Shown here piece by piece: positions 21,435 through 25,577 of a DNA stretch of 39,030 nucleotides. Origin of the DNA: Treponema sp. (lineage in GTDB: Bacteria > Spirochaetota > Spirochaetia > Treponematales > Treponemataceae); assembly GCA_018385395.1 (NCBI GenBank), contig JAHBAD010000013.1, positions 1-39,030 of the forward strand, written 5' to 3'. The notes under the pieces were generated by a model. The model ran no database searches. It was given only the letters and a program-made list of their open reading frames with translations, and was not told the origin of the DNA. Position numbers and translations under genes: made by a program. Numbering within the stretch: the stretch's first letter is position 1; every line of letters starts with the position of its first letter.

Positions 21435-21718
21435 TTTGCGATTTGCAACGCAAAGGGCGAATCTTATGAGCCCAGCAAAAACTTGTAATCAGTTTGCTTT
21501 TGCAAACTGAAAGCGTGGCTGAACTCCCCATGACGTGTAAGTGCCGGAACGGCCACGCTAGCAATGAAGCCTGTACTCTAACGTGGCATTACGGGTAATT
21601 TAAATTCACGAAAGCGTTTGTTCGCTTTCGTGTACAAAGTTTTGTTAGCCTCGCAAAGGCTCGGCTTCTGCTCTGCAGACCACAAAACTACTATAAAGCT
21701 GCTCTACTCAGGGCAGCT
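21435..21718. repeat. Hairpin-dense intergenic region (at least seven inverted repeats)
   Basis: TTTGCG/CGCAAA, GGGC/GCCC, CAGTTTGC/GCAAACTG, GCGTGGC/GCCACGC, CACGAAAGCG/CGCTTTCGTG, AGTTTTGT/ACAAAACT enclosing two hairpins, AGCTGC/GCAGCT. Confidence 0.75.
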
Positions 21719-22640
21719 ATTTTTTTGCGCTGTTTACGATGAATATTCCCGCAGAAGTCAGAAGAAGTGCTGCCACACTGGTAAGTCCAAGAACGGAACC
21801 TTCATTAAGGAATATAGCAGAAAGGATTACGCCGAAAACCGGATTCATAAATCCAAAGACGGCAACTTTCGAGATAGGATTATATTTCAAAAGAATTCCC
21901 CAAAGAGAATAAGCTACAGCCGAAACAAAGGCAAGGTAAAGAAGAAGCCAGATCCCTTGTACTGTTACCACAGGAAGAGTTCCACCGCCCAATAAACCGA
22001 TTATTGTCATAATGACGCCACCAATAATAAACTGGTACCCGCTCATAGTGACAGGATCTTCTACTACTGAATATCGTTTCAAAAGAACGGATGAAATGGC
22101 ATAACAGAAGGTTGAGGCAAAAACCAGAAGGTCTCCAAGCCATAAAAGTCCTTCTCCGCCAAGGCTGTTTCCTGAAAGATTAATCAAAACAACACCAGAA
22201 AACCCGATCACCGTCCCAATCAGTTTCCGCTTTGTAAGTTCCTCCTGATGAAAAATAAGGCTTGCAATAAAGATAGCAACAAAAACATTTGTTCCTTCAA
22301 CAATAGAACCACGAACTCCGGTTGTAAAGGCAAGTCCTATGTAAAAGAAAATATACTGGCCTATTGTCTGAAAAGAAGAAAGCTTCAGAACCTTTCCCCA
22401 GGCTTCCTTTTTTGGAAAAAGAAAACAGCGTCTTGTAATACTTCCGATTATTACGGCAAGCCCCCCTGCAAGAAAAAACCTTATTCCCGCAAAAAGGATT
22501 TGCGAAAAGATTTGAGAGCTTTCGATCTGAAATAAAGAATACCCGATTTTAATTGCAGGAAAAGCACTTCCCCATAAAAGACAGCAGATAAGAGCTCCTG
22601 CCCAGACTACAAAAGAGTTTGTAAAAAATTTTTCTGACAT
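21717..22640 (-). CDS. EamA/DMT-family transporter
   Basis: 10-TM pattern, LICCLLWGSAFPAIKIGY, VEGTNVFVAIFIASLIFHQEELTKRKLIGTVIGFSGVVLI. Confidence 0.92.
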   Translation of the reverse strand: MSEKFFTNSFVVWAGALICCLLWGSAFPAIKIGYSLFQIESSQIFSQILFAGIRFFLAGGLAVIIGSITRRCFLFPKKEAWGKVLKLSSFQTIGQYIFFYIGLAFTTGVRGSIVEGTNVFVAIFIASLIFHQEELTKRKLIGTVIGFSGVVLINLSGNSLGGEGLLWLGDLLVFASTFCYAISSVLLKRYSVVEDPVTMSGYQFIIGGVIMTIIGLLGGGTLPVVTVQGIWLLLYLAFVSAVAYSLWGILLKYNPISKVAVFGFMNPVFGVILSAIFLNEGSVLGLTSVAALLLTSAGIFIVNSAKK

Positions 22641-22659: not shown

Positions 22660-23181
22660 TTAATCTACAGCAGAAATTTCATTGAACAGAGCTTCGTAGA
22701 GAGTTGCTTTATCGCGGTTTACATTACGAATTGTCTGAGCCATACGGTTTGCAAGGACAGTCAGAACTCTGTAACCAAGGACAGGTTCCTTCTTACACAT
22801 TTCATGAAACTTCTTACTTGAAAGAACAAGAATACGGCAGTCTGTTAAAGCGGAAACCGTAGCATTACGGGTATCGTCACTGATAAGGGCTGTCTCACCA
22901 AAGAAAATATTCATTGACGAATCCAGAGTAGCAAGGGCAATAACATCTCCAGCCGGTGTAAGACGAGAAACGTGAACGGTTCCTTGTGATAATATATAAA
23001 ACTCGTCTCCAGTATCTCCTTCCTTAATTATCACCTCACCTTTTTTGTAGTGGCGGATAAGAGTATTGTCATAAACCATTTTTAAAATGGCTTTATCATG
23101 CTCATCAATAATATCAAAATCTGCAAATAGTGCTATTTTTACAAGCTTTGGAAGTACTTCATCAAAATTTCTGTTTTCCAT
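22660..23181 (-). CDS. Stand-alone cyclic-nucleotide-binding domain protein
   Basis: YKKGEVIIKEGDTGDEFYILSQGTVHV...FFGETALISDDTRNATVSALTDCRILVLS. Confidence 0.92.
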   Translation of the reverse strand: MENRNFDEVLPKLVKIALFADFDIIDEHDKAILKMVYDNTLIRHYKKGEVIIKEGDTGDEFYILSQGTVHVSRLTPAGDVIALATLDSSMNIFFGETALISDDTRNATVSALTDCRILVLSSKKFHEMCKKEPVLGYRVLTVLANRMAQTIRNVNRDKATLYEALFNEISAVD

Positions 23182-23182
23182 T

Positions 23183-24355
23183 TTATTTACCTCTTACAAA
23201 AATAGCCTTTGCATTTTTAGGAATAATAAAATCACCTTTTGGTGCAAGAACAGGTTCATTACTTTTCAAAAGTTTAACTTTCTGAAGGTTACTGATTACT
23301 GTATTGATATCAGGATTTTTCTGGGCTTCACGGAGTGCTTCTTTACGTCGCTGATGAAAATTTCCACTGTTCAAAAGAAGGCCGACAAGAACTCCTTTCT
23401 CTTTTTTATTTGCAAGCTCTGCTTTTCGGAGTTCTGCATAAGTTTTGCCAATCATTTCTTTTCCAATATCAAAAATGAGAATTCCCGAATCTGCATCATC
23501 ACTAATAAGACTTTTGATTACATTTGAATAACCTGCACCACTTGAAGCAGTTGCAAGAAGACTGTATTCATAATCCTGTGTCAAAATAATTTCATCACAG
23601 TGTGCCATTCGGAGATGCTTTTCAAACTTTGCACTTTTCAGTTCGGCAACAACATAAATCCCACGGTTCAAATTTTCCATTGTAAGAACCGCAAGAACAG
23701 TACGGGAATCTGTTTCAAGTTCAGAATATTTTTTTGACTGGTCACTTATAACCATGGCGCGGGCAGCAGTTTCGATATAAGCACGTTTCAAAGTTGATTC
23801 ATCCGTAAAGTCTCCTGCTACATAATGAACTTCTTTAAATCGTATATCATCCCTCAAAGCTTCCATCTGTTCAACAGGTGCTTCATTTACAAGAACTATC
23901 ATATCCGGTGTAATTTCTGGATTTGAAACAAGTACAGTTTCAAGAATTTTTTCAAAACCGGGTCTCCAGCCGCACAAAACAAAATGTCCTTCCATATTTT
24001 TCAATCTGCTTAATCCTTTATTTTTTTTATCTTGAATATCAACAAAAACAGAAGCCACCTGACCTCTGATATAGGCAAAAACCATGGTTCCGATTATTAA
24101 AAGTGTAATGGCAGCAGCACGCCCCGGGTAAGATTCACAAACAAATTCAAAATACCCTGCGCACACTGCAACACACATAAACCAGAAAGTATCCATTTTT
24201 GTTGTGATACCGCTTCCGGTCTGAGTTTCAAATTTATAAACAACGGCAAGAAGACAATAAACCAAAACCACAAGACCAATATAGCCAAGTACCATAGGAT
24301 TTTTGAAAACTGCTTTTACGTGCCGTGAAAAATCAGTCTTTCGTTTATTCTTCAT
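23183..24355 (-). CDS. 2TM ion-channel-like protein with TrkA-N/RCK domain
   Basis: Two TM segments flanking a pore-loop-like segment (CVAVCAGYFEFVCESYPGR), then GHFVLCGWRPGFEKIL RCK nucleotide-binding region. Confidence 0.85.
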   Translation of the reverse strand: MKNKRKTDFSRHVKAVFKNPMVLGYIGLVVLVYCLLAVVYKFETQTGSGITTKMDTFWFMCVAVCAGYFEFVCESYPGRAAAITLLIIGTMVFAYIRGQVASVFVDIQDKKNKGLSRLKNMEGHFVLCGWRPGFEKILETVLVSNPEITPDMIVLVNEAPVEQMEALRDDIRFKEVHYVAGDFTDESTLKRAYIETAARAMVISDQSKKYSELETDSRTVLAVLTMENLNRGIYVVAELKSAKFEKHLRMAHCDEIILTQDYEYSLLATASSGAGYSNVIKSLISDDADSGILIFDIGKEMIGKTYAELRKAELANKKEKGVLVGLLLNSGNFHQRRKEALREAQKNPDINTVISNLQKVKLLKSNEPVLAPKGDFIIPKNAKAIFVRGK

Positions 24356-25481
24356 TTCTTCCCCGAATTACTACTGCCTTTGAAGCTTCCGGAATAATGT
24401 AATCTTCTGCAGGAGTAAGCAAAGGTTGATTTATTGAACCATTTTTTAAACTATGGTTTCCTGCATTCAAAAGAAGGCCTACAAGAACATCCCCATCATC
24501 AATATCACTGTCATACCATGAAACCAATTCCCCGTATTTTTTTCCAACAAAGTTCTTTTCTATATCTTCTATAATAATACCTGTATCTGCATTGTCACTG
24601 ATCAAAGCTTTAATTACATTACTGTAACCAAGACCACTGGATGCCGTTGCAAGCAAACTGTGTTCATAATCCTGAGTCAAAATAAGCTCATCCACATTTG
24701 CCATGCGAAGATGTTCTTCAAACTTATCACTTAAAAGCTCTGCGGAAACATAAACTTTTGCATTAAGATTTTTCATTGTAAGAACAGAAAGAACTGTTCT
24801 TGAATCAACTTCCATATTAGAAATATCAGTACCTGCAGAATAATCGGCCATAACAAGTGCACGGCTTGCCGTCTGAATAAACGCACGTTTCAAAACATCG
24901 GCATCGGAAAAATCCCCGGCAACATATTTAATTTCTGTAAAACGGGAATCAGAACGGAGGATTTCCATCTGATCTGCAGGTGCATTGTTCACAACAACAA
25001 TTCTGTCCGGACTGATATCAGGATTCTGAATCATTACCGCTTCAAGAATTTTTTCAAAGCCAGGTCTCCAGCCGCAAAGTAAAAAATGTCCTTTCATACG
25101 CTTAAGTTTTTTTAACCCCTTATTATTTTTTGACTGAACTGCCAGAATGGCTGACGTTATTTTTCCAAGAACGATTGTCCAGAAAGCCATACCAACAAGA
25201 AGCAGAACAAGAGAAGCAAGTCGTCCTGGAACGGTTTTCATATAATAGTCATAATATGCGGCAACAACTGCAACAATTGAATGCCAGATTGCATCTTTCC
25301 AGTTTGTTACTTCTCCTTCAGGATGATAAGGTTCCGTATTTCCAACAACGATAGTTGCAGCAACCAGAAGAAGCACTATGAGAATAAATAAATATGTGAA
25401 AGGATTTTTAAGAGAATATTTTATGTTTTTTTTGACTTTCCGCCAGAAAGATGAACTCTTTGTCTTAGACTTTTTAGACAT
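24345..25481 (-). CDS. 2TM ion-channel-like protein with TrkA-N/RCK domain, paralogue of 23183-24355
   Basis: IVAVVAAYYDYYMKTVPGR pore-like segment, GHFLLCGWRPGFEKILEAVMIQNPDISPD; strongly similar to its neighbour. Confidence 0.85.
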   Translation of the reverse strand: MSKKSKTKSSSFWRKVKKNIKYSLKNPFTYLFILIVLLLVAATIVVGNTEPYHPEGEVTNWKDAIWHSIVAVVAAYYDYYMKTVPGRLASLVLLLVGMAFWTIVLGKITSAILAVQSKNNKGLKKLKRMKGHFLLCGWRPGFEKILEAVMIQNPDISPDRIVVVNNAPADQMEILRSDSRFTEIKYVAGDFSDADVLKRAFIQTASRALVMADYSAGTDISNMEVDSRTVLSVLTMKNLNAKVYVSAELLSDKFEEHLRMANVDELILTQDYEHSLLATASSGLGYSNVIKALISDNADTGIIIEDIEKNFVGKKYGELVSWYDSDIDDGDVLVGLLLNAGNHSLKNGSINQPLLTPAEDYIIPEASKAVVIRGRNEE

Positions 25482-25502: not shown

Positions 25503-25540
25503 TCACATAAAAAAAAAGTGGGGCTATAAGCTGCCCCACT
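25503..25540 (-). terminator. Rho-independent terminator of the MFS gene
   Basis: AGTGGGGC...GCCCCACT followed on the minus strand by a T-run. Confidence 0.9.
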
Positions 25541-25577
25541 CATTCCAGAAATTTAATCTTTTTATCAGAAAAACATT

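Follow-up and report, generated by a model that had tools for sequence, protein, structure and literature searches.

The window analysed is a 39,030-nucleotide stretch of a contig from a gut Treponema; among named organisms, Treponema MAGs recovered from horse faeces and other gut samples come closest to it. Three adjacent genes, A, B, and C, encode two paralogous channel-like subunits and a stand-alone protein with a cyclic nucleotide-binding domain (CNBD) (Table 1). The initial annotation described these genes as almost fused, and its spacing proved exact: A and B overlap by 11 bp (A stop, 24345; B start, 24355), and a single base separates the end of the B stop (23183) from the start of C (23181). 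The A-B-C order was kept in relatives that are only 55–70% identical, while the flanking MFS, EamA, and MCP genes were neighbours of A-B-C in the closest relatives only; therefore, the grouping is not due to chance. The neighbourhood comparison proposed in the annotation thus upheld the three-gene set, and its channel-CNBD core was adjacent across the whole phylum, as described below. Behind the MFS gene upstream lies a hairpin resembling an intrinsic terminator, which suggests a separate transcript start for A-B-C. On the downstream side, an EamA-type transporter gene (21717–22640) begins 19 bp past C and may share the transcript in the window; of the three closest relatives, two have it at the same place. 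It was rejected as a fourth member of the unit because it was undetected in the third relative and in more distant ones.

Table 1. Features of the A-B-C locus (positions in the window) and a related chimera at another locus.
Feature	Position	Strand	Description
Gene A	24345..25481	minus	378-aa 2TM-RCK channel-like subunit; filter AAYYD; without the ~35-aa RCK C-lobe segment
Gene B	23183..24355	minus	390-aa 2TM-RCK paralogue of A; filter AGYFE
Gene C	22660..23181	minus	173-aa stand-alone cyclic-nucleotide-binding protein; no HTH
Pore-loop codons of A	25248..25262	minus	residues 74-78, AAYYD, at the position of the K+ signature TVGYGD
Pore-loop codons of B	24146..24160	minus	residues 66-70, AGYFE
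RCK C-lobe segment of B	23258..23362	minus	about residues 332-366, NFHQRRKEALREAQKNP..NLQKVKLLKSN
Phosphate-binding cassette of C	22861..22902	minus	FGETALISDDTRNA; includes E96 and R105, which hardly vary among 22 homologues
Conserved C-terminal tail of C, past the C-helix	22675..22719	minus	NRDKATLYEALFNEI
Intrinsic-terminator-like hairpin	25516..25541	minus	behind the upstream MFS gene
6TM-RCK chimera	L070:6418-8001	minus	also at L198 and L199

A and B share 49% identity over their full length, and both had been described as carrying a 2TM pore module with TrkA-N/RCK domains. The cytosolic part of this description held, as Slo-like_RCK and TrkA_N were found above the Pfam cut-off in both proteins, whereas the pore family Ion_trans_2 stayed below the cut-off in the protein scan. 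This weak score is explained by the absence of TVGYGD from both pore loops. The reading of A and B as channels stands for their architecture, a 2TM pore followed by RCK, but the K+ selectivity filter is gone from both subunits. In the alignment, the canonical TTVGYGD corresponds to A-AYYD in A and A-GYFE in B, both of which are one residue shorter. Single-chain AlphaFold models, among them that of C, were shallow and of low confidence (pLDDT 56 and 63) and were used for topology only. When the window was compared with three orthologues, dN/dS of A and B ranged from 0.035 to 0.10, and the 35 P-loop codons showed 0–1 amino-acid changes vs. 8–20 synonymous ones. Judged from these codons, the A/B pore is under strong purifying selection, and pseudogene decay is ruled out by the dN/dS values together with the constancy of the P-loop. 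Furthermore, the loss of the filter is not a sequencing accident, because the orthologues keep the same altered loop and its codons are constrained.

Filterless channels formed one clade (SH-aLRT 100) nested inside the canonical channels in a tree that was computed without the filter columns. Among the 55 members of this clade, 54 lacked the filter, and the exception was a 6TM chimera with TVGYGD. Every member of the main filterless clade has F or Y in place of the second filter glycine, with one residue deleted, and the Y plus D/E of the filter are retained throughout. The inner helix and the hinge glycine are also retained. A and B constitute sister clades of 14 members each (support 98 and 98, joined at 87), and the remainder of the filterless clade consists of single-copy channels; the filter was therefore lost before A and B were duplicated. 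Three further genomes yielded A/B pairs, bringing A to a total of 17, with B downstream of A in every case. The chimera occurs in three MAGs from one genus of the same family, where the filterless 2TM pore has given way to a 6TM TVGYGD pore with voltage-sensor-like segments (voltage-gated type), which is fused to a filterless-clade RCK region, with C following. Chimeric assembly was rejected as its source, since the fusion recurs in three MAGs, at 89–90% identity in the other two. Judged by this chimera, the RCK/C module seems able to gate a conducting pore.

C contains a single cNMP_binding domain (Pfam, 5e-23). Its phosphate-binding cassette, which had been called plausible, is intact and reads FFGETALISDDTRNATVSA, exactly as earlier quoted. 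The predicted fold, a low-confidence model, comprises a beta-roll, the C-helix, and one more helix, and lies near the domains of CRP, HCN, and PKG. No DNA-binding or HTH domain was detected in C, in which Pfam found cNMP_binding alone and whose 173 residues finish in helices after the beta-roll; the Pfam scan likewise found no effector domain. A CNBD fold does not guarantee ligand binding, which can be lost. The genome itself encodes three class III cyclase domains, one of which has the catalytic motifs GINTG...MEYTVIGDAVNLASR. Class III cyclases are abundant in spirochaetes, with 9 in T. denticola and 18 in L. interrogans (PMC1183210). Given the near-invariant Glu and Arg of the cassette, the three cyclases in the genome, and the cyclase-rich spirochaete background, cAMP or cGMP would be the natural candidate ligand of C. 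Action of c-di-AMP on the RCK domain is conceivable.

The association between the channel and C extends far beyond the A/B pairs. A C-type CNBD gene adjoined the channel gene on the same strand at 63 of 64 order-level loci. The remaining one (L035) is the only locus with A and B at which C was not adjacent, and a C-type gene was located on another contig of the same genome (G145:C78). Strong channel matches were present in 72 of the 294 genomes of the order, and all 72 contained a C-type CNBD; only one genome had C without the channel. In the wider phylum Spirochaetota, the CNBD gene directly followed the channel gene at 60/60 loci, mostly overlapping it or only a few bases apart; in three of them, C is truncated by the end of the contig or by a stretch of N. 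Nearly all of these 60 channels have a TVGYG- or TTGYG-type filter, and no channel-CNBD fusion of the Rosetta stone type was found at the order-level and phylum loci examined. The phylum-wide adjacency, the canonical filters, and the absence of a fused gene at these loci point to an ancestral system composed of a K+ channel and a detached CNBD. Outside Spirochaetota, plasmid homologues at 26–28% identity were among the matches listed, and one Rhizobium homologue locus had no annotated CNBD neighbour.

The CNBD tree parallels the channel tree. Tandem double units (L080:6116-9589, L074:611-4014, L084, and L071) contain a channel with a GVVRF pore and its CNBD beside a canonical TVGYGD channel and its CNBD, and the CNBD tree groups each CNBD with the kin of its own channel. 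Together with the phylum-wide adjacency and the co-occurrence in 72/72 genomes, these parallel trees give good support to the separate CNBD partner proposed in the initial annotation. A second ancient pair family has the RCK C-lobe segment S/AIDxFIKRKF and the CNBD tail LKLS/TTALSIALS (L087-L097; L180-L182, L184-L187, L189-L191, L193, L194, and L196), and one genome (G324: L174, L180) carries both pair families. The matching of insert and tail types was rejected as covariation, as the tree shows a single origin for each type and the match therefore counts as one event. One further genome held a channel gene fragment with frame breaks (G149:C3:125434-125955), and no C-type CNBD was found in it, an apparent decay of the channel-CNBD system.

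Adjacency, co-occurrence, and co-duplication, all read from the genomes, are indicative of functional linkage rather than of contact. Regulation of the channel by C is nevertheless very probable. Alternatively, C could be a cyclic-nucleotide receptor that works apart from the channel and shares only its transcript, a reading for which the absence of fusions at the loci examined may be cited. This is improbable in view of the phylum-wide adjacency, the co-duplication as a unit, and the lack of an effector domain in C. As a channel regulator, C would act as the cyclic-nucleotide sensor of the complex itself, binding cAMP or cGMP, and would dock on the RCK ring, with B as the likeliest point of contact. 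In the RCK C-lobe, B, the single-copy channels, and the canonical family-I channels keep a conserved stretch of about 35 residues that A has lost in 17/17 A/B pairs; in B, it is a candidate docking site for C. Such docking would open or close the pore.

The invariable pairing of A with B and their fixed asymmetry make the heteromer proposed in the initial annotation fairly probable, and A and B would then form a joint tetramer that bears an RCK gating ring. Besides the C-lobe segment, the two subunits differ at the outer mouth, where Lys82 of A, a lysine in almost every A, corresponds to Glu74 of B, possibly as a complementary pair in the heteromer. On the other hand, singleton filterless relatives exist and are presumably homotetramers, so A and B could each assemble into a homomeric channel of its own, as simple paralogues that divide roles and share one C. 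This is somewhat unlikely, as A was never found without B (17/17 paired), the genes overlap, and the asymmetry in the C-lobe and at the outer mouth is fixed. A partner channel elsewhere in the genome was also considered and rejected. In their own MAG, Ion_trans_2 matched no gene other than A and B, which makes the borrowing of a canonical subunit unlikely, although this MAG is 84% complete and may lack another channel.

The heteromer would have a pore with altered ion selectivity, which is probable given the changes in its filter. The remodelled pore would probably pass cations with less preference for K+, or cations other than K+. The plant nuclear channels CASTOR/POLLUX/DMI1 resemble A and B in having RCK domains (profile match E 6e-18) without TVGYG, but their filter differs from that of A/B and the second half of their soluble region is distinct. 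Castor_Poll_mid (PF06241) was absent from A and B, and one canonical relative had a sub-threshold match (17.6 vs. 26.7 bits). CASTOR, which has an RCK gating ring, is Ca2+-selective (PMC6697748). Among 2TM channels, TbIRK and NirBac lack the K+ signature as do A and B, but they are of the Kir type and have neither RCK nor a CNBD partner; NirBacs are non-selective, whereas TbIRK from Trypanosoma, with GGYVG in place of TXGYG, prefers K+ to Na+ by a factor of more than 7 (PMC5429665).

TbIRK also illustrates how the A/B pore might still select K+ by an unorthodox filter, and G-Y plus an acidic residue are kept in B and many singletons. Such a filter is distinctly unlikely, however, because A reads AAYYD, the second glycine is F/Y in the entire main clade with one residue deleted, and CASTOR sets the precedent of an RCK channel without TVGYG that conducts Ca2+. 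A and B could also be non-conducting, receptor-like channel relics whose pore anchors an RCK-CNBD sensory complex or has a regulatory or dominant-negative role. The K+ signature has indeed been lost from both subunits, the tandem double units place the third variant (GVVRF) next to an intact TVGYGD unit, and one lineage has put an intact 6TM pore in place of the filterless one. However, purifying selection on the altered P-loop is very strong, Y plus D/E are kept across the main clade, the inner helix and hinge glycine are retained, and many genomes maintain a filterless singleton by itself; a non-conducting role is hence unlikely. The most specific form of the conducting reading, a cyclic-nucleotide-gated heteromeric cation channel that is not K+-selective, is possibly permeable to Ca2+ or Na+, derives from a bacterial K+ channel through loss of the filter, and has a separate RCK-docked subunit as nucleotide sensor, can be proposed only tentatively.

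MthK is the nearest solved structure to A and B, which match its pore and RCK together (profile E 9e-26; fold match E 1.4e-11) and share with it one RCK per subunit. MthK and the canonical relatives have the TVGYG(D) filter, whereas A and B do not. The RCK ligands to which the initial annotation ascribed gating were not specified there, and the MthK Ca2+ site is kept only in part: its residues (D184/E210/E212) correspond to N222, E248, and L250 in A, so that only the equivalent of E210 is kept. The present system further differs from MthK in its two paralogous subunits, the CNBD gene that is always alongside, and the helical segment in the RCK C-lobe. In SthK, MloK1, and HCN, a CNBD with an intact cassette gates a tetrameric P-loop pore, the same role as is proposed for C, which folds like the CNBDs of HCN and SpIH in a low-confidence model. 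However, the CNBD of those channels is fused behind a 6TM pore, whereas in the present system it is encoded on its own and the pore protein has RCK. KtrAB and TrkAH likewise encode a ligand-sensing cytosolic protein apart from the membrane pore, but the detached part is the RCK protein in those systems and the CNBD in this one, where RCK is fused. C also differs from CRP/FNR regulators, which have a C-terminal HTH.

The whole model, an A/B tetramer with a remodelled pore whose RCK ring is set by the separate protein C, is judged somewhat more probable than its contrary. Its ancestral form, still found across Spirochaetota, is a TVGYGD K+ channel with a separate CNBD protein. On the Treponema branch, the sequences show that the filter was remodelled through the deletion of one residue and the replacement of the second glycine by F/Y, with D/E kept, and that a duplication into A and B followed. 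An RCK-gated P-loop channel is of a known kind, but regulation by a separate CNBD is apparently undescribed, and no description of a channel with a separate CNBD was found in the open-access literature. As the sensor is a separate protein across the phylum and the pore protein has RCK, the coupling between RCK and CNBD can be tested by supplying or withholding one small protein. The Treponema branch represents an ordered natural experiment, with a single loss of the filter, a split into constant partners, and a 6TM pore swap on the RCK/CNBD module, which bears on the change from a K+ channel to a non-K+ channel and on the origin of heteromers. If the model is true, an RCK-docked separate nucleotide sensor would be a gating architecture that is ancestral across the whole phylum.
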